32,248 nt of DNA. It comes from a virus. The DNA is taken from positions 1 through 32,248 of IMG/VR virus record IMGVR_UViG_3300028773_000015. One strand, written 5' to 3'. The notes under the pieces are model-generated. The model worked only from the letters and a program-made list of their open reading frames with translations. It had not been told where the DNA came from and ran no database searches. Positions 476 to 29,080 of this stretch are shown here, piece after piece (the stretch's first letter is position 1; each line of letters begins with the position of its first letter). The translations under genes and the position numbers were made by a program.

Positions 476-990
476 GTTGTGTTTCCTTCGAGGAAGCAAC
501 CCATGTCAATAAGCTTCAAGTTCCCGTCTTTGTCTTCCGCCCAATTGCCAGCATTATGCAAGTCAGAGTCTTCGACACCATGGTAGCGGTTAACAAGATA
601 TTCGAGTTTCCTGATAGTATCTGAATGCCTCTTGTGACCGACTCGCTTGTATTTCGGCATAACGATTGTACCGTACGTGTGATTGAAGTACAGAATCTCT
701 GGCATAAGGGGCTTGAACATCTGCCATCTCTTTGCCTTTGACTTCATGACCTTTCTGATAGCGTCGACCTCAAGCCAGCTATGCTCGATACTGTATTCGA
801 TACGTTCTATGGACTGACCCTCACACCTCGGTAATTTGATGATCAGGTCCGTACCGATGATCTGGTACGCGTCTCTGTACGCGCCCCCGCCGACAGGCCG
901 TAGGCTGAATCCACATTGCACCATCAGTTGCCTCTCCGTCTTTGGGTGATGATAGCGTATTGCTTCGAGGGCGCTTTCACGACGAGTCAT
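460..990 (-). CDS. Miniature protein-kinase-like / phosphotransferase-fold protein
   Basis: This 176-residue protein carries the landmarks of the kinase/aminoglycoside-phosphotransferase fold in order. There is a glycine-rich loop (GGGAYRDAY, about residues 34-42), a lysine in a following strand (IIKLP, K52), a catalytic-loop motif DLHNAGN (D143 to N149) and a DFG-like IDMG (D162). It ends shortly after that motif, so the usual C-lobe helices are missing and the protein is much shorter than ordinary kinases. Its ATG overlaps the TAA stop of the primase-helicase (TAATG), so the two are translationally coupled. Substrate is unknown; it could phosphorylate a host protein or small molecule, or be a pseudokinase. 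Confidence 0.65.
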   Translation of the reverse strand: MTRRESALEAIRYHHPKTERQLMVQCGFSLRPVGGGAYRDAYQIIGTDLIIKLPRCEGQSIERIEYSIEHSWLEVDAIRKVMKSKAKRWQMFKPLMPEILYFNHTYGTIVMPKYKRVGHKRHSDTIRKLEYLVNRYHGVEDSDLHNAGNWAEDKDGNLKLIDMGCFLEGNTTCPSN

Positions 991-3083
991 TAGATGCCGA
1001 TCTCCTCAGTCTCTTTCGGTTCCTCAGCTATCGTCTCAGATGCAGTTGCGTCGACGGAAGCTGGTGCGGTTTTCTCTACGGCCTTTTTGAGACCGGCGAG
1101 GTTCTGGTTTTGTATCTGTGCAGCGTGGCCGACGTTGTGGTTGGCCATTGCCTGAATGACTTTCTTCTGATGCTCCGACATCTCACTTACGGTCGAGGTA
1201 GCTCCGTTCATGTGGAGTTCACACCGGCCACCAGAGCTATAGCGGCTCAGGCCTACGGTCAGAAGCATACGATCAGAGAACGTCGCCTCTTCTTCCATCG
1301 GCGCGCCGCTGTCGAACTGCATGACGTCGGCGGTATTGTTGTTCGCGATACGTGGGCGGTGCAGCGTCAACATGCAATCGCAGTCCTTCGCGATCTGTGA
1401 CGAGCCGTCTACGTTATCGGTTGACACCATCCCACCGCCCTGGATACGGTTCGGCTGGAGGATGCGAATAATCTGGACACCGTAATCTTTCGCGATCTGC
1501 GAAATAACCTTGCTGATCTCCGATAGGTGCTCGGTACGGTTACGGCCTTGGCCTCGCGGCGTCGTATCGGCCAGTCGTTGAATGTTGTCGATGGCAATCC
1601 ACTTTACTCCATAGCGTCGGATACAGGCACGCATCAGGTTATAGATGTCTTCGCAGTTCTTGTACTGAGGATAGCAGAAGTAGAAGTCTCCTTCACGATC
1701 CTGTACTTCCTTTTGAAGCTTCGGCACTGCCTCTTTGAACTTCGCGAGGAGAGCATGGGACTCAGCTTCGTCCTTTGGTAGGTTGTCTTCGATACCTGCC
1801 TTGTGCGAGACCCACTTACGGGCCATGCGCGCTCTGGTCATTTCGAGACAGATGAACACACCGTCTTCACCGTATGTGGAGCACATGTGCTCCATCAGGT
1901 TCATCGCATAGGTAGTCTTTCCAACCTTCTCAGGTGCGAGGATGTCAATGACATCACCCTCGTCAAATCCCACGAGCTTATTCTGGCTAGGCCAAGCGGA
2001 CTTATACTTCGGTTCCAGGCCGCTCTTCCCTTCGAGCTCGTCCATAAACTCAGAAAGCGAATCCTTGGAACTCGCAACGCCATCAACGTCAAAGAGAACA
2101 GCTTCCTCTTTGAGCTTCGCGAACGATTCTGCTGTACCGCCGCCGAACGTGAAGTATTCATTCAAGTCCTTCCCGAGGCGTTCAGTGCCATCGTCTTTAG
2201 GTACCATGAAGTCTGGTAGAGTAATCTTCCAGCACTTCTCAATGCCGATCTTCGCTGCGAGAGTCTGCGCTGCTTTCTGGCCCACTTTGTCTTTGTCATA
2301 GCAAATGTATATCTTTTCCAGTTCGAGTTTATCGAGTACGTCGATCCACTCGGCCTTCTTAAAGTTAGCGCCTGGTACACCACAGATGTCTATGACAGCG
2401 TGATCCATTGCTGAGATACAGTTGGCCTCACCTTCGACCATCACGATCTCTTTGAGGCCTTCCTTGTTCAGAGCCTCCTGATTGTACAGCGGCACCGTCC
2501 AGCCCATCGGAGAGCTAAACGCCTTCGGTACCTTACCAGGATTGTCCATGTCAGGGCAAGTCCGGTAATGTACGAAGACACTGTTGGAATTAACCAAGTA
2601 CGGGTAGATGATAGCCGGAACCTTACCGGTTTCACGGAAGTACCGTTCTGGTGTGTATCCTAGTTTCTGCTGCTCGATGATGGCGCGCGAGAAGCCGCGA
2701 CCGTTCATCAGGTAGTCCATTGCGTTTGCGTTTTCGAGGAGGGCTTGATGAGCCTCTTCTAGATCAGGTAGTTCTTCTGTCTTGCGTCCTGTGTCGCCTG
2801 AGTCCTTGCGCGATTCGACTTCAGGGATAGTCACTCCTAAATGCTGCTTCAGGCTGGTTAGATTGCCCTGCTTACCACACTTCATGCAGGCGCACAAACC
2901 GTCCCTGTTTGCCTGCGAGTCATCTGCACCATGCAGAGACATCCTAAAATGGTACCCATCTTTGTCGCAGTAAGGGCAAGTCTCAATCTCATATTGTGGA
3001 GGACCGGCTGATCTCCAATTCCAGCCCCGAGAGGTAATAAACTGCATCGCCTTGCTTGTTACTAGTTCACTTGGTACAGTCAT
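990..3083 (-). CDS. Bifunctional DNA primase-helicase (T7 gp4/Twinkle-like)
   Basis: Replicative enzyme that primes and unwinds DNA at the phage fork. An N-terminal zinc-binding domain has cysteines at about 36, 39, 66 and 69. A Toprim domain follows with VEGE (E217) and YDKDK (D263, D265). The C-terminal RecA-type helicase has a P-loop APEKVGKTT (383-391), an LEM segment typical of DnaB-family helicases, a Walker B strand IAIDN (about 496-500) and the later GSSQIAKDCD element. The 697-residue length suits a fused primase-helicase. The tail is acidic and ends ETEEIGI, resembling the SSB-like protein's tail. The ATG lies only 11 bases after the -10 box and has no ribosome site, so the message may be almost leaderless. 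Confidence 0.95.
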   Translation of the reverse strand: MTVPSELVTSKAMQFITSRGWNWRSAGPPQYEIETCPYCDKDGYHFRMSLHGADDSQANRDGLCACMKCGKQGNLTSLKQHLGVTIPEVESRKDSGDTGRKTEELPDLEEAHQALLENANAMDYLMNGRGFSRAIIEQQKLGYTPERYFRETGKVPAIIYPYLVNSNSVFVHYRTCPDMDNPGKVPKAFSSPMGWTVPLYNQEALNKEGLKEIVMVEGEANCISAMDHAVIDICGVPGANFKKAEWIDVLDKLELEKIYICYDKDKVGQKAAQTLAAKIGIEKCWKITLPDFMVPKDDGTERLGKDLNEYFTFGGGTAESFAKLKEEAVLFDVDGVASSKDSLSEFMDELEGKSGLEPKYKSAWPSQNKLVGFDEGDVIDILAPEKVGKTTYAMNLMEHMCSTYGEDGVFICLEMTRARMARKWVSHKAGIEDNLPKDEAESHALLAKFKEAVPKLQKEVQDREGDFYFCYPQYKNCEDIYNLMRACIRRYGVKWIAIDNIQRLADTTPRGQGRNRTEHLSEISKVISQIAKDYGVQIIRILQPNRIQGGGMVSTDNVDGSSQIAKDCDCMLTLHRPRIANNNTADVMQFDSGAPMEEEATFSDRMLLTVGLSRYSSGGRCELHMNGATSTVSEMSEHQKKVIQAMANHNVGHAAQIQNQNLAGLKKAVEKTAPASVDATASETIAEEPKETEEIGI

Positions 3084-5247: not shown

Positions 5248-6498
5248 TTACTTGCTGTCCTTGTCAAGGAAAACATTACTGACCACTTTGAGCTGCTTGC
5301 GACCGAGGCCGCGCACACGCTCCTCCTTGACGGTCTTGAGGACGTTGCCCTCACGGATGTTCTTTGCACATGGGACTGCCGAGAGGCCGTCGACGTAAAG
5401 CAGGAGAGCCTGACTGTAAGCACCGAACGTACCTCGGTACAACTCAGGAACCCGTACTGATTCGTCAGGCACAGCAGCAAGGAAAGTATCGTAGTCATAG
5501 AACGTGTGTGTCTCAGGGTTGAAGATGTCGAAGGCCAAGAATTTGACCTCACCTTTCTTCGTTCCGTATGCCCACTTGTCGCCCTGCGTCGGCACCAGCT
5601 CACCCCACAGGACTAAGCCTGGGTTCTCCGCGCACCATGCGCCGATCCAAGGGTTCTGAACGAGAGCCTTGCGGAACTCATCCTTCGAGTCAGCATGCTT
5701 CCACTGTGTCCGTGACCCGGCGTACTGGATACCGTCGAGGTACATGTACCGCGCGTTCGATCCGTGAACCTTCTCAGTCACCACGATCTCATCGTCACCA
5801 GCGAACGTGCCCTTGTAGTTCTTGAAGGCTTCGATGTCGTACGTTGGGATAGCGATGGGCGTGTCGATAGGACCGAGGTGTGTCTGAGGGAATAGCTTGC
5901 GCATGATGCCATGCCATGCAAATCGGACCCAACCCTTCAGAGTCTTCGGACGGCGCGCCTTGCGTGCCGGTGCGGATGCGCTTGGGTCTTCGGGCTTGTC
6001 GGCGTCTGGGTCGTAATGGGTGATGCCGAGAAGGTCAGACACATCATCACCTTCGTTTACTTCTTTGGTATAAAGTGTTACACCACATTCGTGCATGTAA
6101 CCACCAGGAATATACTGAAAGGTGACCCCATCGCTCATAAATCCGAAAGCATTAGAAGAGATGAAGTCACTAACTGGCAGAAGCAGGCCTTCGGAATATT
6201 GACCACGGAACTTGCGAACCGTGATGCGTCTGCGCTTGGCCGGTACCGTACCGTCGATGCCAACGTGACCTTCCCATATGAATTTAAATGGGATCGTCTG
6301 CGGCACGACCGAGTCGGGCTGAATGTAGACAGCGAGGTCACCAATAGCGAACTGTCCCTTACGCACAACAACTTGGTACCCACCGATTACGATTAGTTCG
6401 AGATCGGTTGTCTCAGGATCAGGGTGTGCGAGCACTTCAGCTACACGGACGATGTTGGCTTGATGATTAGACTTCTTAACTTCAGGAGTGGTTGTCAT
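5248..6498 (-). CDS. RNA ligase, DRB0094/Rnl5-like
   Basis: An ATP-dependent RNA ligase of the nucleotidyltransferase superfamily, resembling the Deinococcus DRB0094 type that carries an extra N-terminal OB-like domain. Motif I is TEKVHGSNARY with the adenylated lysine at K243. Later motifs are LVLWGELV, VKFLAFDIF and a C-terminal RKQLKVVSN that supplies the motif V lysine. Residues 1-160 form the extra beta-rich domain, joined by a Pro/Ala/Lys linker near 175-185. It would seal nicked RNA, for example tRNAs cut by host defence nucleases. The start is close behind its own promoter. A second, T4 Rnl1-like ligase lies at 12998, so this phage carries two unrelated RNA-sealing enzymes. Confidence 0.88.
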   Translation of the reverse strand: MTTTPEVKKSNHQANIVRVAEVLAHPDPETTDLELIVIGGYQVVVRKGQFAIGDLAVYIQPDSVVPQTIPFKFIWEGHVGIDGTVPAKRRRITVRKFRGQYSEGLLLPVSDFISSNAFGFMSDGVTFQYIPGGYMHECGVTLYTKEVNEGDDVSDLLGITHYDPDADKPEDPSASAPARKARRPKTLKGWVRFAWHGIMRKLFPQTHLGPIDTPIAIPTYDIEAFKNYKGTFAGDDEIVVTEKVHGSNARYMYLDGIQYAGSRTQWKHADSKDEFRKALVQNPWIGAWCAENPGLVLWGELVPTQGDKWAYGTKKGEVKFLAFDIFNPETHTFYDYDTFLAAVPDESVRVPELYRGTFGAYSQALLLYVDGLSAVPCAKNIREGNVLKTVKEERVRGLGRKQLKVVSNVFLDKDSK

Positions 6499-12744: not shown

Positions 12745-13001
12745 GGCTTCACGACCTTTGTAGGATCGAGTTGCACACAGGAGAAGTTATCTTGAGCGTT
12801 GTACTGGTGACGGAAGCAGATGAACTCCGTGTTCGTCTTGCTGTCACGGAATATCTCGGCGGTCGTGTCTTCATTCTGGAACGTGTTGTAACCCGTCAGG
12901 TATATCCGATGGTTACCGGCTTCGTCGGCCTTGACTGCTGTCAGCTTGAGTGCGGAGAAGATCACAACCGCTAGGGCTACTCCTGCTAAAATGCTCTTCA
13001 T
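12741..13001 (-). CDS. Small exported protein
   Basis: An 86-residue protein with an N-terminal signal or anchor, MKSILAGVALAVVIFSALKL, and AVKA as a possible cleavage site. The remainder is polar, with two cysteines (FICFRH and FSCVQL) that could form a periplasmic disulfide. It overlaps the ligase stop at one end and the HAD start at the other (both ATGA), so it is in the middle of the putative RNA-repair string although its product leaves the cytoplasm. No family recognised. Confidence 0.65.
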   Translation of the reverse strand: MKSILAGVALAVVIFSALKLTAVKADEAGNHRIYLTGYNTFQNEDTTAEIFRDSKTNTEFICFRHQYNAQDNFSCVQLDPTKVVKP

Positions 13002-14179
13002 TCCTTATCCTCGTCAGTCTCATCGTCCTTCATGAAGAAGACGTCCTCTTCGTTGGCGATGCTTTCCTTGATCATCTTCCAGACAACTTTGCCCCAATCC
13101 TTTTCGTCGATCATGGCGAATGCTGCCGACGCGTACAGTACGTTCTCTTTTTTGGCCAGGAACAGTGCCGTCTCCTTACGCGTAGTGCAGCTCGTCTTTG
13201 CCTTGATGACCGTCTCGCGCACCTTGAGGCCAATCTTGCCGAAGGCCTCACTAAACCTCATGAACCATCCGCGCACGAACTGATTAAGTTCAGGGCTCTC
13301 CGTCTCCATCCACCTCTGCACGTCTTCTGCTCGACCATCAATGAGTGCCTGGAGGATGTGTTTCGGTGTCGCGTTGTGGCTGATCTTCTGAATGAGCAAG
13401 AAGCTCTCATGCTTCACCTTGACCTTCAGTGGCGGCTGACCCGTACGTGCCCATGTCAGGACATAGCCCTCTTTATTCTTGCGGTCTTCGTTCAAGACCT
13501 TTCCTACAGTCTTGTCGAAGTGTTCGACACACTGGATGTTGTTTAGCCACGCCCAGTAGCCTAAGTCTATAAGTGATAGTTCCTCGCCGGTCTCATTGTT
13601 GATGCACGCCGTCAGGATTAGCTGATTATCCATAGTCGCGTCGTAGTGGACCGGATGCGATTGAACTTCCTGGGCGATGATCTCGAACATCGGCGTGTAG
13701 CCTTTAGGCCAAGCATGTCCGAAATGAGTCAGTTCTTTACTGCCGTCAATATAGTGCTTAGCTAGCCATGCAGTCGCCCATTCAGCCTGTTCGGAGTGGA
13801 ACGAGCCTTTAGTAGCGATGCCTTCATGGACTATACCGTCAGCTTCTTCATACTTCCAGTACGTGCCCATCGATCCGTCGAGCTTTTCCGTGACGGTAGG
13901 CTGCGTCTTAGGAAGGTTAGTAAGCCATGTTTCTTCACGATACGTCGTAGAAACGTTAAAGAACTTTTCCCACGGCCTAGCGATAATCCTGCCGCTGGTG
14001 CTCTCAACGATCAGGCCCCTTGTGCGCGTTGTCACAGAATCCCAAAGATCATCTTGCATTGCCTTCCGCGAGTAGCAATAGATGACGAGAGGTAGGGTTT
14101 TATGTGAGCGCATGTCTACAAGACCGGCTTCAACGTGGGACTTCAGTTTCTCGATATCTAGGTACTCGTGAATGAACAA
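12998..14179 (-). CDS. T4 Rnl1-like RNA ligase
   Basis: An ATP-dependent RNA ligase of the T4 RnlA family, which rejoins tRNAs cut in the anticodon loop by host suicide nucleases. Motif I is TVTEKLDGSMGTYW; with a TTG start at 14179 the adenylated lysine is residue 99, the position it has in T4 Rnl1. Upstream is TRGLIVE and RPWEKFFN (compare CRGIMFE and RPMEKFFN), then NKEGYVLTW (motif IV) and VKVKHESFL (motif V). The 393-residue length fits. AAGG lies eight bases before the TTG, whereas the more distal ATG at 14236 would overlap the Acb2-like gene by 53 bases. It ends in an acidic tail. Confidence 0.92.
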   Translation of the reverse strand: MFIHEYLDIEKLKSHVEAGLVDMRSHKTLPLVIYCYSRKAMQDDLWDSVTTRTRGLIVESTSGRIIARPWEKFFNVSTTYREETWLTNLPKTQPTVTEKLDGSMGTYWKYEEADGIVHEGIATKGSFHSEQAEWATAWLAKHYIDGSKELTHFGHAWPKGYTPMFEIIAQEVQSHPVHYDATMDNQLILTACINNETGEELSLIDLGYWAWLNNIQCVEHFDKTVGKVLNEDRKNKEGYVLTWARTGQPPLKVKVKHESFLLIQKISHNATPKHILQALIDGRAEDVQRWMETESPELNQFVRGWFMRFSEAFGKIGLKVRETVIKAKTSCTTRKETALFLAKKENVLYASAAFAMIDEKDWGKVVWKMIKESIANEEDVFFMKDDETDEDKE

Positions 14180-14183
14180 TGAA

Positions 14184-14399
14184 TTATCCTTGTGCCTTCT
14201 GGTTATATGGTTCCGATGCCATGCCCTTCTTGGCAAAGAAGGACGCTTCTTCGAGCTTAGTTTTCACGATGGAAAAGCTGCGACCCTGTGGTACGAGGTT
14301 TTCAATCTTCGTAAGGAAGTCGTCAAACTCCTGTGCGATGCGCTTTGCTTTTGCTATTCCCAGATCATTCAACAAGTGTACTTCAAACTCTGCGTGCAT
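14184..14399 (-). CDS. Acb2/Tad1-type cyclic-oligonucleotide sponge (anti-CBASS) candidate
   Basis: A 71-residue helical protein whose body, LLNDLGIAKAKRIAQEF through RSFSIVKTKLEEASFFAKKG, matches the pattern I associate with the Acb2/Tad1 hairpin domain: an N-terminal helix, a PxGR turn and a TKLEEAxxFAK helix. Known members form hexamers that sequester the cyclic nucleotide signals of CBASS (and some Thoeris) defence. ATG 14399 is preceded by AAAGAGGAC; longer in-frame starts run into a structured leader (14458-14532) and are not believed. It ends five bases before the Rnl1-like start. The family call is from memory of the motif and needs a profile search. Confidence 0.72.
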   Translation of the reverse strand: MHAEFEVHLLNDLGIAKAKRIAQEFDDFLTKIENLVPQGRSFSIVKTKLEEASFFAKKGMASEPYNQKAQG

Positions 14400-22491: not shown

Positions 22492-23142
22492 TTAGGCAGT
22501 GATAAACCTCCGCCGCAGCATGCCTGCTGCGCCCAGCGCACCGGAGCCGAGGAGTAAGATGCTGCCGGGCTCAGGTGTTGGAGCCATAGGAACCGCCGCT
22601 TCGGTAAGGAAGTCCTGAGCTGTTCCGCCGCTGCTCTGAGAGCCTGATACCGCCGTTTCCAAAGTGAACTGGTTGAAGAAAGCATTTCCCCCGATGTCGT
22701 CAAGACCAGCCAACTCGTAGTAGTGTAGCTGGTCGACTTCCGCCTGTGTCAGGCCTACCGCCGCCGTCGCGTCGTAGTCTAGGAGAGACCAAATTTCGAG
22801 CTGCGCATCCACCTGACTGATCGCGCCAAGTTGAGCTGCCGCGATGACTTCTGCCGCTGCCTTTAGATCGCCGGAACTGTCGACGGAAAGAGTAGAGCGG
22901 GTTGCGCTCCAGGTCTCGCCGACCGTGATCTCGTTGTCGATGTCGATACAGTACATGCTGACTGGAGTACCGTTTACGCCGATGCTATACGGACCCACAT
23001 AATCCGCGCCGTTGGGGGTTGTCGCGCCGTTACCTACTCCCACAAGGGAGAGCTGATCGGCGTGTGCGACTGCCGGAAACATAAGGCTGGCAGCGGTGAC
23101 TAGGATATAAAGTCCTGATGCGATGCGTCGGGTACTAATCAT
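22492..23142 (-). CDS. Exported PEP-CTERM protein
   Basis: A 216-residue secreted protein. The N-terminus MISTRRIASGLYILVTAASL continues through a hydrophobic core to AVAHA, a clear signal peptide. The C-terminus has the sorting signal PTPEPGSILLLGSGALGAAG followed by a basic MLRRRF tail, the substrate of exosortase/archaeosortase systems. Between them YVGPYSIGVNGTPVSMYCID and EITVGETWSAT recall PEP-CTERM proteins I associate with Acidobacteriota. ATG 23142 is chosen for its AAGGAGG and signal peptide; the frame stays open upstream through the hexanucleotide repeat. It would be placed in the host envelope. Confidence 0.9.
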   Translation of the reverse strand: MISTRRIASGLYILVTAASLMFPAVAHADQLSLVGVGNGATTPNGADYVGPYSIGVNGTPVSMYCIDIDNEITVGETWSATRSTLSVDSSGDLKAAAEVIAAAQLGAISQVDAQLEIWSLLDYDATAAVGLTQAEVDQLHYYELAGLDDIGGNAFFNQFTLETAVSGSQSSGGTAQDFLTEAAVPMAPTPEPGSILLLGSGALGAAGMLRRRFITA

Positions 23143-23145
23143 AAT

Positions 23146-23158
23146 GCCCTCCTTGGGC
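23146..23158 (-). promoter_or_regulatory. SD-in-loop leader hairpin (copy 3)
   Basis: GCCC-AAGGA-GGGC before the PEP-CTERM gene. It begins four bases from the ATG, so the loop AAGGA is the ribosome site. Confidence 0.5.
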
Positions 23159-23171
23159 GTTGTAAGAGCTA

Positions 23172-23188
23172 CGTTGAGGTTATGCTGG
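23172..23188 (+). repeat. 17-base leader repeat, copy upstream of the PEP-CTERM gene
   Basis: CGTTGAGGTTATGCTGG on the + strand, identical to 23719-23735 and related to 22385-22399. Each copy lies in the leader of a minus-strand gene (23142, 23690, 22344). Confidence 0.7.
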
Positions 23189-23228
23189 AGGGTACCTTTT
23201 GCAGTACCCTCCCACGTATTTATACGGT

Positions 23229-23390
23229 AGACCCAGACCAAGACCCAGACCGAGACCAAGACCCAGACCGAGACCAAGACCCAGACCGAGACCCAGACCA
23301 AGACCCAGACCGAGACCAAGACCCAGACCGAGACCCAGACCAAGACCAAGACCCAGACCAAGACCCAGACCGAGACCGAGACCGAGACCG
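23229..23390 (+). repeat. 27-copy hexanucleotide repeat AGACCN
   Basis: Exactly 27 units of AGACC plus one variable base fill the gap between the PEP-CTERM gene and the gene at 23424. The last base is C, A or G, never T, in a near-periodic order. All frames stay open: on the minus strand the PEP-CTERM frame continues through it as Val/Trp/Leu-rich sequence. Unit gain or loss would preserve frame. It is not a CRISPR array because there are no spacers. Confidence 0.97.
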
Positions 23391-23423
23391 CCATCTCATC
23401 TTATTGGAACGTGGCATTTTAGC

Positions 23424-23807: not shown

Positions 23808-24890
23808 TTACCCCTCTATCGCGATGTCTGAGGACGCCAGCTCGTCGTCATCGTCGCGAAACTTGCGGTTAGCCTTGATCTCAATCATATCACCAAGGTT
23901 AGCGGAAACTTTTTCTATGCCCTCCAACACCTTGCTGCGGAGCTCATCGGATGATTTGATGGTCGGTGCGGATACGCCACTCAGGAGTTCGCGTACCTGC
24001 GCCACCACTGCTTCGAGCTCGGTGTCGTTAGTGACGTTACGGAGGGGGAAATCGTCAAGGAACTTTTGGACGTTGACGATAGCGGACTCTTTGAGGATTT
24101 TCTTACTGCCATCGTCGCCGGGCGTGAGCTTGTCTTGCAGGTTGGTCACCACCTTGTAGAGCGCGGTGCGCATGAGGTTGGTGATCTCTTCTTGGGCGGA
24201 TGAGTAAGACGCCTCGAACTTAGCCTTCTCCTTGTTGAACAGGTCAGTGGAGATGTGCTTCAATGCATCCGGCGTGCCAAGGTTGACGAGTCCCCATGAG
24301 AAGTAAAACTTGCCCTTGAGGATGTCGACGTGCGGGTAGTCGCTGGGGTTGTATTGACTACCGAGGTGCTTCTGTGCCTCCGCCTGTAGAGCAGGGTACG
24401 CTGCGATGAATGCATCGACAAGTACCTTACGCTCGCCTTCGTAGGCCTCAAGCTTCTGTACCGCCTTATCAATCAAGCCGATAGGCAGGAGACGGAGACC
24501 GGAGTCGAAGGGCAAGCAGGTATTGTCGATCCATTTGCGAATCTTCTGATCGGCCTTAGAGATGGCCGATAGTTCTTCGGAGTCAAGGAGTTGCTTCGAC
24601 ACCTTCATCAAGGACAAGTCGGCGTCCGTATTGAGTACGGCTGAGCCTGGGACGCCTTTGCTGTTGCCGACAAGGCCGAACTGGAAGCGAACGAGGATGG
24701 TCTTGGATACTATGCCGGAGATATCCTGCGCCGTCTTGCCTTCGACGGTGATCTCTTTGGGCAGGAGCTCTTCGCCAGTCGCGCTGTCAGAGAACTCAGG
24801 AGAAGGCATCACTAAGGCTGGTGGAACGGCAAAGGTACCGTCCTCTTGCTTGAACTCTTCCAGAGTGTCGAAGATTTGAGTGTTGCTCAT
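23808..24890 (-). CDS. DUF3150-like protein co-regulated with the AAA+ ATPase
   Basis: A 360-residue soluble, mostly helical protein. The pattern of the first 200 residues (SKTILVRFQFGLVG, ADLSLMKVSKQLLDSEEL, then FDSGLRLLPIGLIDKAVQKL) resembles DUF3150 phage proteins that accompany MoxR/CobS-like ATPases; this is from memory and tentative. The C-terminal half is coiled coil and ends NRKFRDDDDELASSDIAIEG, containing the FRDDE-type motif. CAAGGAGCAAC precedes the ATG. Its promoter shares a composite element with that of the AAA+ gene, the best evidence that the two work together. Confidence 0.7.
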   Translation of the reverse strand: MSNTQIFDTLEEFKQEDGTFAVPPALVMPSPEFSDSATGEELLPKEITVEGKTAQDISGIVSKTILVRFQFGLVGNSKGVPGSAVLNTDADLSLMKVSKQLLDSEELSAISKADQKIRKWIDNTCLPFDSGLRLLPIGLIDKAVQKLEAYEGERKVLVDAFIAAYPALQAEAQKHLGSQYNPSDYPHVDILKGKFYFSWGLVNLGTPDALKHISTDLFNKEKAKFEASYSSAQEEITNLMRTALYKVVTNLQDKLTPGDDGSKKILKESAIVNVQKFLDDFPLRNVTNDTELEAVVAQVRELLSGVSAPTIKSSDELRSKVLEGIEKVSANLGDMIEIKANRKFRDDDDELASSDIAIEG

Positions 24891-24967: not shown

Positions 24968-25450
24968 TTATTTGGGAAAGTTTAGAAAGGCAAATTCCCC
25001 GAAGTGTTCGAAGGCTGCTATATCATACATCTTTGCTGCTGTAATCTCACACTTAGAGGAGCCGATGTACTTTTGCTTGCTGTGCAGGTGAATGACAACG
25101 CGCCAGCTTTTCTTTCTCCACGAAACTCCTTTGTACTTACTTGTAGTTGCAGCTCCTTTTCGCGTAGCATACGGTCGTTTATTCATTTGCTGCTGGTGCT
25201 TTGTGGCCGGTCTGAAGTTGTTCTTCTGGTTGTTGAGTCCGTTATTGTTGATATGATCCACGCCTACTGCACCGCTTACGAACTGATGCATTCGGATAGT
25301 TTGAGTCTTGCCATCTACTCTTCGTGTGCGCTCTGCATATCGCAACCCATTACCGTAGTCATGTACATGCCACGTCAAAGCGTTCACTTTGTCGTAGTCT
25401 TCGTCATCTACTAAGGCCTTGTGGCCCTGCGATAGTTCTATCTCTTTCAT
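24968..25450 (-). CDS. HNH-AP2 homing endonuclease
   Basis: A 160-residue site-specific nuclease. The front part (MKEIELSQGHKALVDDEDYD, LTWHVHDYG) and VDHINNNGLNNQKNNFRPAT form the HNH_3 catalytic core (DH...N...N). The rear SKYKGVSWRKKSWRVVIHL and KYIGSSKCEITAAKMYDIAA form an AP2 DNA-binding domain. This pairing is typical of phage homing endonucleases. ATG 25450 overlaps the upstream TGA (ATGA). It has inserted between a leaderless gene and the DUF3150-like gene's promoter, interrupting the co-regulated block. Confidence 0.92.
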   Translation of the reverse strand: MKEIELSQGHKALVDDEDYDKVNALTWHVHDYGNGLRYAERTRRVDGKTQTIRMHQFVSGAVGVDHINNNGLNNQKNNFRPATKHQQQMNKRPYATRKGAATTSKYKGVSWRKKSWRVVIHLHSKQKYIGSSKCEITAAKMYDIAAFEHFGEFAFLNFPK

Positions 25451-25773
25451 ATAAAATTGGCGTTCAACCATTCAACTTCAGCCTCTATGGCGTCCTGTCT
25501 GCTGTAGAACACTTCATCGAGCAAAGGCCCGTTAGAGGGAGATAAGTCCACACGCCAAGCACAAGGCCACTTGCGCGTGAACTCTCCCACTAAACCTTTT
25601 TCACCGAACATTGCGCGCAGTGCATGAAAGGCTATGCGCAGAATGTAGCTGTCTGGATCGACATGCGACGCTCTACGTACGACGGAGTTATCCTCTAGTA
25701 AACAAGCTGTTGTGTCATTTACTAGAAACCTCACGTCTCCATCTTCAGAAAGTGTGATGACGATGTTTTCCAT
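25447..25773 (-). CDS. Hypothetical protein from a leaderless transcript
   Basis: A 108-residue protein starting MENIVITLSEDGDVRFLVND. It has an N-terminal beta section, a helical middle (YILRIAFHALRAMFGEKG) and a C-terminal helix ending EVEWLNANFI. No family recognised. The promoter's TATAAT ends six bases before the ATG and no SD exists, so the mRNA should start at or beside the start codon. That promoter lies in one arm of a 19-base inverted repeat. It is coupled to the HNH-AP2 gene by ATGA. Confidence 0.7.
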   Translation of the reverse strand: MENIVITLSEDGDVRFLVNDTTACLLEDNSVVRRASHVDPDSYILRIAFHALRAMFGEKGLVGEFTRKWPCAWRVDLSPSNGPLLDEVFYSRQDAIEAEVEWLNANFI

Positions 25774-25779
25774 AACGTG

Positions 25780-25809
25780 ATTATATTCTCCCGTCTGCTC
25801 ATAAGTCAA
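25780..25809 (-). promoter_or_regulatory. Promoter giving a leaderless mRNA
   Basis: Minus-strand TTGACT, 18 bases, TATAAT (perfect -10), then CACGTT and the ATG. Transcription should start within a base or two of the A of ATG. Confidence 0.8.
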
Positions 25810-26254: not shown

Positions 26255-26677
26255 TTACGCCTTCAAAAATTGGTATTTCACTTTGTTGTTGACGAACTTC
26301 TTGTCGATGAACTTGAGACCGGCGCGCTTAGCTTGACGCATGATGCCTTTGTCGGCGTACGAATTGCGAAGCTTGGCGACCCACTGATCGTTGTGCTTGT
26401 GGCTGTCGTAGTCGCTGATGATAGCTCCGTAGGAACCGTCAACATTCTTCACGAAGCCAATGTCGTTGGATGCACCACCAACGTATTTACGCCGGATGAT
26501 GAGGTCTGCACGCTGCGCACGGAGGTCACCGTGGTAGCCGACGAGCTGTTGGGGGTTGCCGATGTGGTTCTCCACATCCGTGTAACCCATATCTGCGAGA
26601 GCTGCAATTAGCAGGGCCGCGTCCTTGAAGGTTGTTTTTGTTTCCGAGTAGGCTGAAATATAGATACCCTCTTTCAA
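26255..26677 (-). CDS. DUF1257 (Ycf35-like) protein
   Basis: A 140-residue protein of the DUF1257 family, related to plastid and cyanobacterial Ycf35. Landmarks in order: KDAALLIAALADMGYTDVE, RADLIIRRKYVGGASNDIGF, VKNVDGSYGAIISDY, then KLRNSYADKGIMRQAKRAG and a C-terminal strand. This follows the family's ADLVIR...YDIGFVRNEDGSY...L...YA pattern closely. Role unknown in any organism; it often neighbours DUF2997 and a Ycf46-like ATPase. The best start is TTG 26677 without SD, close behind TATAAA, possibly a near-leaderless transcript. Confidence 0.83.
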   Translation of the reverse strand: MKEGIYISAYSETKTTFKDAALLIAALADMGYTDVENHIGNPQQLVGYHGDLRAQRADLIIRRKYVGGASNDIGFVKNVDGSYGAIISDYDSHKHNDQWVAKLRNSYADKGIMRQAKRAGLKFIDKKFVNNKVKYQFLKA

Positions 26678-26721: not shown

Positions 26722-27453
26722 TTATCCAATAACCGACAGGAAGATGTCCTTTTGCCTTTTTAGAGCGGCGGACTCAGCGGCGGACCAAGCGGCGGACTCA
26801 GCGGACCGAGCGGCGGACCGAGCGGCGGACCGAGCGGCGGACTCAGCGGACCGAGCGGCGGACTCAGCGGACCAAGCGGCGGACTCAGCGGCGGACCGAG
26901 CGGCGGACCGAGCGGCGGACTCAGCGGACCAAGCGGCGGACTCAGCGGACCGAGCGGCGGACCGAGCGGCGGACTCAGCGGACCAAGCGGCGGACTCAGC
27001 GGCGGACCGAGCGGCGGACCGAGCGGCGGACCGAGCGGCGGACTCAGCGGACCAAGCGGCGGACTCAGCGGACCAAGCGGCGGACCAAGCGGCGGACCGA
27101 GCGGCGGACAGTTCTTCTACCGTAATCTTTCCCTGCATGAACAGAGAAGCTGCCTCAATAGCTTGGCGTGGTCTTTCATCTTTGGGAAACTGCTTTTCAA
27201 AGTTAGAAAGAGACTCACTGGCGAACTTGATAGCGAGTTGAGCAATCTCCTGCTTACTGTTCACTGTTGTCGCCTGCATTGCCCAGATGGCATGATTTAG
27301 ACCATTCGACTCAAGGATATGAGATAAAGGTATACGCTTGTTCTCAGACCACTTTGAACCAGATGGAGTAGAAGGTAGCGACGCTGTTAGTGTCCCCATG
27401 CCCTCTGTGCAGGCATTCGCTTTACGAAGAAGTTTTAGTGTTGTATATAACAT
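26722..27453 (-). CDS. Protein with long Ser-Ala-Ala-Arg/Trp repeat tract
   Basis: A 243-residue protein. The N-terminal 115 residues are ordinary helical sequence (MLYTTLKLLRKANACTEGMG, NHAIWAMQATT, DERPRQAIEAASLFMQGKI). The next 115 residues are built almost wholly from four-residue units SAAR or SAAW mixed with SAE, forming a long amphipathic helical rod. It closes with a normal segment, KRQKDIFLSVIG. Similar AAR/AAW tracts occur in bacterial and phage proteins, some called putative immunity proteins; function unproven. ATG 27453 has AAAGGAT upstream. It lies directly between the DUF1257 and AAA+ genes. Confidence 0.75.
   Translation of the reverse strand: MLYTTLKLLRKANACTEGMGTLTASLPSTPSGSKWSENKRIPLSHILESNGLNHAIWAMQATTVNSKQEIAQLAIKFASESLSNFEKQFPKDERPRQAIEAASLFMQGKITVEELSAARSAAWSAAWSAESAAWSAESAARSAARSAARSAAESAAWSAESAARSAARSAESAAWSAESAARSAARSAAESAAWSAESAARSAESAARSAARSAARSAESAAWSAAESAALKRQKDIFLSVIG
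26764..27110 (+). repeat. Coding tandem repeat of 9- and 12-base units
   Basis: GCGGAC-based units (AGCGGCGGACCG, AGCGGCGGACTC and short AGCGGACCA forms) repeat about thirty times and encode the Ser-Ala rod. All units are multiples of three, so recombination changes length without breaking the frame. Confidence 0.95.
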
Positions 27454-27460
27454 AAATGTA

Positions 27461-27489
27461 ATCCTTTCATAGTCCAGAATAGATGTCAA
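27461..27489 (-). promoter_or_regulatory. Probable promoter of the repeat-protein gene
   Basis: Minus-strand TTGACA, 17 bases, with TGA-AAGGAT as a weak extended -10. The -35 is perfect but the -10 matches only three of six and overlaps the SD. Confidence 0.45.
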
Positions 27490-27532: not shown

Positions 27533-29080
27533 TTAGTCTTCTCTCATGGTTCTACCGGTAACCACCTTGGCTTCTGGTAGGTGATCGGCGGAGGTCTCCG
27601 AGTAGTGGTACACGCCGGGCTTCGATGCTGAGAGATACTTGCCCGAACTATTCGCACGCAGGTTATAGATCAGATCAGCCGATGATGTAGTAACCGGGAC
27701 GATGTAGGTCGAGGCCTCAGCAAGGGTCAGGCGCATACGGTGTGCCTTCTTGCAGCACTCCTTGATCTCCGCGCCAGTCCACCCATCATCGTTGAAGTTA
27801 CGCTTTGCGCGGTCTGCGCTGATGGCGTACTTCTTGATGTAGATATCCCAGATGGCTGCACGTTCTTCGCTGCTCGGGCTGTCGAAGAAGAAGATACCAA
27901 GGTTGAAGCGTCGGCGTAGTTCAGGTGGTAGAGCACCGATGCTGTTACAGGTAGCAATCGCCAAGACACGACCGCCAGATATAGCGTCAACTGTGGCCTG
28001 GGCCTGTCGCAGGTTGGCGTTAGACGAGCCGACAAGACCCGACTGCATGCCAGCGAGGTCAAAGTTGATGACGGGCTTGCCGTAGCTGCCACCAGACGCC
28101 TTAGCAAGCTGCGACTTCGACACGCCAGGGAGACCGATGAAAATCACACCATCCATCTCTGTATTCTGCATCCACTGGAGCATGGCACCTGTCAATTCAG
28201 TCTTGACACCAGACGTCTCTGTTCCGGTACCGGCAAATGCTTTCTCGATCTCGTCAATGAAGATGATCGTCTTGGGCGGTTCTTCGCCGTTCATGATCTG
28301 AGTCATAAAATTCTTGACCTGTGTGACTCCGCCAATGTCCTCCAGCTTCTCCTTACCATCCCAGACGCTAAGGCCGGGTGACTGCGAGATAATGTTGCGC
28401 TTACGGTCCCACAGCTCGTGCGTATCGATGCTCTTAGTCTTGCGGTCGATGCACATCGCTACTGCTTGTTCTGCTGGGAATGCAGGGAGACCGATCAATG
28501 CGTCGGTGCAGAGATTCATGAGGTCTTTGTCCGCCGCATCTAGACCAGCAGCGTCGAAGGTTGTGTTGACGACCGCCTCTAGTTGCGCCAGTGTTGGCAG
28601 TGGTTCGTCGAGGGTCAACACATCCGACACGAGCTCAGTAGGAATCTGCGAACCTGGAGCAGTAAGTAGCACTAGCATGTTACCGTTGGCCTTGAAGTCA
28701 TCGCGTAGATTCCAGATACCTTGGATCGCGGTCGACGCATCACCGGTCCATTGCAGATGGGCATTCTTGATGATAAGGATGAGGTCTTTGGTCGCACGTT
28801 CCGCCATCTCAAGGGTAGACGTAAACGGTACGCTTGCGGTTTGCTCCTGCGTCTCGCGCGACACCTTGTCATAGAGCAGGACTTGCAACTGCTCCTTGCC
28901 CTTGGCAGTAGCCGAACGCATACCGTGTACGCAGTCCCATTCAATGATCGGTGTCTCCTCTAGCTTCTTGCCGAGGATGGACTTGATGTTAGCGACTGTG
29001 GACGCTGCATCGAAAGTGTGGATATTTATCAATGGTGTACTTACACGCCGCGCCGCTTGAAACTGCTGTACGAAGTTCAT
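27533..29080 (-). CDS. Ycf46-like AAA+ ATPase with permuted core
   Basis: A 515-residue ATPase. Residues 1-240 resemble the N-terminal part of Ycf46-type ATPases (ILIIKNAHLQW, LVLLTAPGSQIPTEL, LPTLAQLEAV), including a degenerate first ATPase-like domain. The active domain is out of order: Walker B TIIFIDEIEKAFAG (271-284) and the helix LTGAMLQWMQ come first. Walker A IGLPGVSKS (315-323), VINFDLAGMQSGLVGSS and the sensor-1 strand IATCNSIGALPPEL follow. The P-loop has Ser where Gly normally precedes Lys. An arginine pair RRRF and a lid domain complete it. CAAAGGAG precedes ATG 29080. Confidence 0.9.
   Translation of the reverse strand: MNFVQQFQAARRVSTPLINIHTFDAASTVANIKSILGKKLEETPIIEWDCVHGMRSATAKGKEQLQVLLYDKVSRETQEQTASVPFTSTLEMAERATKDLILIIKNAHLQWTGDASTAIQGIWNLRDDFKANGNMLVLLTAPGSQIPTELVSDVLTLDEPLPTLAQLEAVVNTTFDAAGLDAADKDLMNLCTDALIGLPAFPAEQAVAMCIDRKTKSIDTHELWDRKRNIISQSPGLSVWDGKEKLEDIGGVTQVKNFMTQIMNGEEPPKTIIFIDEIEKAFAGTGTETSGVKTELTGAMLQWMQNTEMDGVIFIGLPGVSKSQLAKASGGSYGKPVINFDLAGMQSGLVGSSNANLRQAQATVDAISGGRVLAIATCNSIGALPPELRRRFNLGIFFFDSPSSEERAAIWDIYIKKYAISADRAKRNFNDDGWTGAEIKECCKKAHRMRLTLAEASTYIVPVTTSSADLIYNLRANSSGKYLSASKPGVYHYSETSADHLPEAKVVTGRTMRED

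Follow-up and report, generated by a model that had tools for sequence, protein, structure and literature searches.

AAA+ ATPases rank among the best-studied molecular machines. The order in which Walker A, Walker B, and sensor 1 follow each other is normally taken as fixed, with profile methods and annotation pipelines relying on it. Along the canonical chain, β1 (Walker A) is followed by β2, β3 (Walker B), and β4 (sensor 1), and the strands of the AAA+ sheet lie in the order 5-1-4-3-2. The closest described systems for the protein reported here are the Ycf46-like AAA ATPases of bacteria, plastids, and phages, which we compared using the canonical proteins L096 to L169, Catdawg gp97, L338C gp50, and phrog_8638. 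They resemble it over their full length (N-terminal domain, helix α0, P-loop unit, Walker B unit, sensor 1, and lid) and have a DUF1257 neighbour, with DUF3150-like genes also found near the closer relatives. The open-access literature that we searched gave no pointer to a known function for Ycf46 or DUF1257. Here, we describe a viral Ycf46-like protein whose core runs Walker B, Walker A, sensor 1 (B-A-C) instead of A-B-C. Its gene lies in a 32,248-nucleotide stretch of DNA (IMG/VR record IMGVR_UViG_3300028773_000015), all of which was analysed and which is referred to here as the window. We regard it as very likely, with a probability of roughly 0.85, that this order reflects a genuine permutation of the β3-α3 unit in a protein that has retained the AAA+ fold.

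Motif order and catalytic residues of the window protein

The gene and its parts are as follows.

27533 to 29080, minus strand: gene of the permuted Ycf46-like AAA+ ATPase, encoding 515 aa, plus stop (AlphaFold2 pLDDT 92.3, pTM 0.86); coding part 27536 to 29080, stop codon 27533 to 27535
28346 to 29080, minus strand: N-terminal domain, residues 1 to 245, degenerate ATPase-like and common to canonical Ycf46-like homologues
28292 to 28324, minus strand: helix α0, residues 253 to 263, in its canonical place before the core (model secondary structure and alignment)
28154 to 28285, minus strand: moved unit B, β3 (Walker B) plus α3, residues 266 to 309 (profile mapping, block order, segment alignments, model)
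28241 to 28270, minus strand: Walker B TIIFIDEIEK, residues 271 to 280
27977 to 28153, minus strand: unit A, consisting of β1, P-loop, α1, β2, pore loop 1, and α2, residues 310 to 368 (profile mapping, model, segment alignments)
28112 to 28135, minus strand: Walker A GLPGVSKS, residues 316 to 323
27944 to 27967, minus strand: β4/sensor 1, residues 372 to 379, ending in ATCN (N379 invariant; model)
27908 to 27910, minus strand: putative arginine finger R391, invariant, its role inferred from where it lies in the second region of homology
27536 to 27976, minus strand: sensor 1, α4, β5, lid, and C-terminal tail, residues 369 to 515 (alignment to canonical homologues)

A preliminary description, made from the sequence alone, had read the core as B-A-C, with the Walker B segment TIIFIDEIEKAFAG at residues 271 to 284, Walker A (IGLPGVSKS) at 315 to 323, and sensor 1 (IATCNS) at 375 to 380. 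Both the order and the positions held in the open reading frame, in profile mapping, and in segment alignments. The protein scores 49.7 bits against the Pfam AAA profile (PF00004; cut-off, 21.2), and when it is cut up, the B piece aligns to profile positions 45 to 96 and the later A piece to positions 1 to 50. The same exchange is seen with phrog_8638, which matches the window protein with an E value of 3.6e-32: the B piece aligns to positions 365 to 405 and the A piece to positions 307 to 364. Five segments compared with the canonical homologues L096, L328, and L333 gave z scores of 12.7 to 34.8 over shuffled controls (15.5 to 24.5 for the N-terminal domain, 25.3 to 34.8 for the C segment, and 12.9 to 16.8 for the C-terminal segment), and only A and B were exchanged.

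The junctions fall in loops just before strands: the linker after α0 now leads into β3 (formerly β1), α3 into β1 (formerly β4), and α2 into β4 (formerly β3). The rearrangement is thus the transposition of one β-α unit and not a circular permutation; the N-terminal domain, α0, sensor 1, and the lid have not moved.

The catalytic residue set is complete. G316, G319, K322, G351, N379, and R391 are invariant in 102 aligned rows, in which the window is counted twice, and so are D276 and E277 (102/102). Since the DNA search patterns included DEIEK, the invariance of D276 and E277 is partly a selection effect; the other residues are unaffected by this. Immediately before the P-loop Lys, the family has G in 51 rows, A in 41, and S in 10. 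The Ser that the preliminary description had singled out at this position is therefore real but represents one state of a relaxed site, a sub-clade detail. It is conceivable that this relaxed P-loop, with A or S before the Lys in half of the proteins, means altered nucleotide handling. In a separate observation, this residue in the relatives (within 28112 to 28135) is one partner of the second strongest coupling of the alignment, the other being V252 of α0.

The relaxed position could also be taken to support a rival reading, in which the permuted protein has lost ATP hydrolysis and either forms a nucleotide-dependent scaffold or inhibits host Ycf46-like ATPases; the existence of a related family in cells, with partner genes that are similar, likewise speaks for it. 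However, the Walker B Glu, Walker A Lys, sensor 1 Asn, and putative arginine finger are all invariant at a mean identity of about 40%, and we regard this reading as very unlikely. We instead infer that the enzyme, an AAA+ ATPase descended from Ycf46-like proteins, is active, although there are no biochemical data.

Distribution and single origin of the B-A-C order

Close searches returned one IMG/VR contig and gp103 of the cultured Tunturiibacter phage Tunturi_3, whose host is Tunturiibacter psychrotolerans X5P2, each 44% identical to the window protein and each B-A-C. When the N-terminal domain alone was used as the query in cultured phages, Tunturi_3 was the sole match. Searching IMG/VR with a profile brought up 201 related stretches; we retained the 80 best, and two extra scans with distant members enlarged the set. 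With separate hidden Markov models for the A, B, and sensor 1 blocks, 255 distinct cores were classified: 101 distinct proteins have the B-A-C order, and 154 relatives that share the N-terminal domain are A-B-C. The B-A-C proteins comprise 95 viral ones, including the window and Tunturi_3, and 6 on contigs binned into metagenome-assembled genomes (MAGs) of Acidobacteriota, Bryobacterales, Nitrospirales, Armatimonadetes, and Myxococcales. The permuted ATPases form a large family of soil and water phages, with almost all members on phage contigs. The A-B-C set was drawn from bacterial and archaeal genomes, viral contigs retrieved with Planctomycete queries, and cultured phages, among them Rhizobium phage L338C, Agrobacterium phage JP1, Rhodobacter phage RcMenchie, and the satellite phage Javan368. 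As the canonical sampling depends on the query, 101 versus 154 should not be read as natural frequencies. Two Acidobacteriia MAG contigs (L103 and L106) each carry two canonical Ycf46-like genes a few kilobases apart.

None of the 255 classified cores had both orders, a duplicated A or B block, or an intermediate arrangement, and no second Walker B-like motif was present after Walker A in 89 permuted open reading frames. Trees were built from the N-terminal domain and the region from sensor 1 to the C terminus only, the swapped blocks being left out to guard against circularity. The order changes once (SH-aLRT, 100) on the tree of 70 permuted and 53 canonical rows and likewise on the larger one, which has 98 permuted and 153 canonical rows. 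The trees are quick searches with SH-aLRT support only, rooted on a distant canonical row. All permuted proteins lie behind one branch, and the nearest canonical rows are the Planctomycete proteins L096 to L098 (from Neorhodopirellula, Planctomyces, and Rhodopirellula) and the viral L328 and L333; the genes neighbouring L096, L328, and L333 are similar to those of permuted loci. We take the change to have run from canonical to permuted because the canonical order spans the other AAA proteins. The presence of two orders without intermediates, together with the single branch, therefore points to one ancient, non-circular transposition of β3-α3 in a Ycf46-like AAA+ ATPase.

Apart from the oddity of the block order itself, nothing speaks for an error of assembly, an artefact of frameshifting, or decay of the gene. 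Against them stand 101 distinct proteins with this order in intact open reading frames, found in independent metagenomes, six MAG contigs, and the cultured phage Tunturi_3 (gp103), as well as the invariance of the catalytic residues; we consider this explanation all but excluded. The view that the B-A-C order is a genuine permutation and not decay, as the preliminary description had proposed, is thereby upheld by the 101 proteins, a tree that shows one origin, and the invariant catalytic residues. So is its statement that Ycf46-like relatives are A-B-C, the nearest relatives being full-length Ycf46-like homologues in canonical order. Homologues with the same order, which it had suggested seeking by profile search, were found in the 101 proteins, and the second Walker B after Walker A that would have refuted it was absent from the 89 reading frames.

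Predicted fold and probable reconstruction of the ATP site

The AlphaFold2 model of the window protein (64-sequence alignment; mean pLDDT, 92.3) shows the expected elements in the new order, with unit B forming a strand at residues 271 to 275 and a helix at 292 to 306. The model of the canonical homologue L096 (pLDDT 88.5, pTM 0.84) has the same elements in the old order. In VIA-align comparisons, the permuted AAA module matched p97 D2 (6g2v) with a Z score of 16.4 (2.8 Å over 202 residues) and Vps4 (6oo2_C) with a Z score of 16.5 (2.7 Å over 208 residues), and alignments of the whole model span p97 D1 into D2. The canonical control matched the same chains over 232 residues (2.4 Å) and 252 residues (2.7 Å), respectively. 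The permuted module thus falls short by 30 to 44 residues, roughly the 44-residue length of the moved unit, which is what a sequential aligner should yield when everything else is in place; the moved unit apparently lies outside the sequential alignment to p97 D2 and Vps4. The best matches in a viral structure library were phage proteins named ycf46 (TM of about 0.6, large rmsd), and no recognizable permuted precedent was found there.

Two of the features by which an AAA+ protein is recognized are present: the fold of the core plus helical lid (Z of 16 to 17 over about 200 residues at 2.7 to 2.8 Å) and a conserved set of Walker A, Walker B, sensor 1 Asn, and arginine finger. The third, the canonical chain order, is not, with B-A-C in 101 proteins. 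We therefore refer to the protein as a permuted derivative by descent and not as an ordinary AAA+ member.

Further support comes from a mean-field coupling analysis of permuted sequences only (about 85 effective sequences). The most strongly coupled pair of elements is α3-α2, followed by β3-α2. Among 26,335 residue pairs, K270-G369 ranks 8 and T271-S368 ranks 19; these pairs represent the two sides of the former α2-β3 loop, adjacent in the canonical chain and now about 100 residues apart. The signal was lost when one column was shuffled. As β3-α3 is still coupled to α2, the active site has very probably been rebuilt in its normal three-dimensional arrangement. The permuted and canonical coupling maps correlate significantly but only slightly (r = 0.096), and hence we relied on the top couplings. 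Since shared ancestry may add false couplings and the maps agree weakly, coevolution is supporting and not decisive evidence.

In the mechanism that we propose, β3-α3 (the Walker B strand, loop, and helix) moved once, in a common ancestor, from between β2-α2 and β4 to a position before β1. That the chain still folds into the usual sheet is an inference with good support. Both new crossovers (β3-α3-β1 and β2-α2-β4) run across the sheet in the same direction as the old ones, so that the helices can keep to the same face; only three loops would thus have to be reconnected, with the ATP site assembled as usual. A ring like that of p97 or Vps4 is inferred with moderate support, from a monomer prediction only.

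Alternatively, β3-α3 could be swapped between neighbouring subunits, with the ATP site completed in trans. Subunit exchange could in principle satisfy the changed connectivity, and coevolution cannot separate contacts within a subunit from those between subunits. However, the monomer prediction is confident over most of the moved unit (block means of 97, 96, 80, 92, and 96 across residues 261 to 310), β2, whose only partner in the canonical sheet is β3, is still assigned as a strand, and in canonical homologues a single domain contains all the blocks. We consider a trans site very unlikely and favour reconstruction within one chain.

Three structural expectations of the preliminary description can be assessed. 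The AAA+ fold was borne out by the match of the module to p97 D2 and Vps4, with the placement of β3 inferred rather than measured. It had also supposed that the nucleotide site is rebuilt with different connectivity, and the evidence favours reconstruction of the same site. Nothing in the monomer model shows the change in oligomerisation that it had raised. A bolder reading remains possible, though we hold it to be less likely than not, namely, that these proteins are a permuted AAA+ subclass in which the new wiring alters more than chain order and affects signalling of the ATP state to the pore or the neighbouring subunit; in this wiring, the Walker B helix leads directly into the P-loop strand and the pore-loop-1 helix into the sensor 1 strand.

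Gene neighbourhood and comparison with known systems

Three neighbouring genes recur with the permuted ATPase.

23808 to 24890, minus strand: DUF3150-like gene, conserved partner (gene cluster in 78/87 permuted loci; profile in 82/88)
26255 to 26677, minus strand: DUF1257 (Ycf35-like) gene, conserved partner (Pfam PF06868, E 9.6e-12)
25447 to 25809, minus strand: small conserved protein of about 84 to 120 aa (profile in 38/88 permuted and 3/80 canonical loci)

With a broad profile, a DUF1257-like gene was detected in 80/88 permuted and 26/80 canonical loci, and 77 of the 88 permuted loci have both DUF1257-like and DUF3150-like genes in flanks of up to 6 kb. Members of the DUF3150-like family reach the Pfam DUF3150 gathering score, and the window copy matches weakly; no Pfam family matched the small protein. 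DUF3150-like genes lie near 11/80 canonical relatives, in Verrucomicrobia and Planctomycetes, and DUF2997 is found beside the canonical gene in both phages tested. A cluster of canonical Ycf46-like, DUF1257, and DUF3150-like genes occurs at eight mostly Verrucomicrobial loci (L112, L116, L121, L124, L130, L153, L164, and L165), and clusters of this type appear to be a cellular version of the phage module. No published function for DUF3150 was found in the open-access literature searched. By analogy with p97/Vps4-type modules, the ATPase may use ATP to remodel proteins, its partners being adaptors or substrates, a reading for which we see as much room for doubt as for belief, there being no evidence of a substrate. 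In the proposed mechanism, a remodelling or threading machine would work with the DUF3150-like and DUF1257/Ycf35 proteins during infection, an inference with moderate support.

Several other genes of the window, all on the minus strand, are also of note. Directly downstream of the ATPase gene, the C-terminal half of the open reading frame at 26722 to 27489 is a long A-A-R/W-S-A-E-S low-complexity repeat. The protein encoded at 22492 to 23394 ends in a PEP-CTERM-like sorting tail (PTPEPGSILLLGSGALGAAGMLRRR), preceded in the same frame by a V-W-V-L-V tandem repeat; related genes occur in three other permuted loci. A primase-helicase with DnaG- and DnaB-like regions (990 to 3083) is in keeping with a phage genome that has a replication module of its own, and the open reading frames at 5248 to 6498 and 12998 to 14236 appear RNA ligase-like by eye.

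As a Ycf46-like protein, the window ATPase qualifies by full-length homology, including the N-terminal domain and the C-terminal tail 'LRxWASGRxLxAxxxGxY' common to both groups, and by its DUF1257 neighbourhood, a frequent association rather than a strict definition. It does not qualify by core order, the 154 canonical relatives being A-B-C. The canonical proteins further differ in their GxxGxGKS P-loop, an arginine-finger region that is slightly longer (RKGRFDE, compared with RRRF in the permuted proteins), and, in most, a longer α0-β1 linker. The classical AAA proteins p97/Cdc48 D2, Vps4, and spastin resemble it in the AAA module (2.7 to 2.8 Å over about 200 residues), Walker A and B, sensor 1, arginine finger, and lid and differ from it in how the core units are ordered. 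Pore loop 1 of the permuted proteins reads roughly (K/Q)-(G/S)-x-x-V-G, whereas that of classical AAA proteins contains an aromatic residue. Models of the IetA/IteA anti-phage ATPases showed only weak AAA-level similarity of separate pieces, and defence-system libraries gave generic AAA matches only; an identity with IetA was rejected (34.4 bits versus a curated cut-off of 510).

In the literature searched, which was open-access only and may lack major AAA+ classification papers, we found no precedent for a permuted AAA+ protein. An inverted Walker order (B-A) has been claimed for OppA of Mycoplasma hominis (PMC3179953); this protein differs in being a substrate-binding lipoprotein with short motif matches that was not described as having an AAA+ core. 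A phage case of a known fold acquiring a new topology is the HK97-like capsid fold of a Bordetella phage (PMC3863775).

Taken together, nature has apparently rewired an AAA+ engine without breaking it, exchanging two core pieces and keeping every catalytic residue. A clade that breaks the order with intact catalytic residues offers a natural experiment on chain connectivity in AAA+ function and a test of how internal β-α units can transpose without loss of the enzyme. In practical terms, collinear searches split permuted homologues into fragments and may misannotate them. Rearranged motif order is also a feature of the circularly permuted P-loop GTPases of the YlqF/RsgA type. Those proteins are circular permutations, whereas in the phage ATPase a single internal unit changed place between domain ends that stayed fixed.
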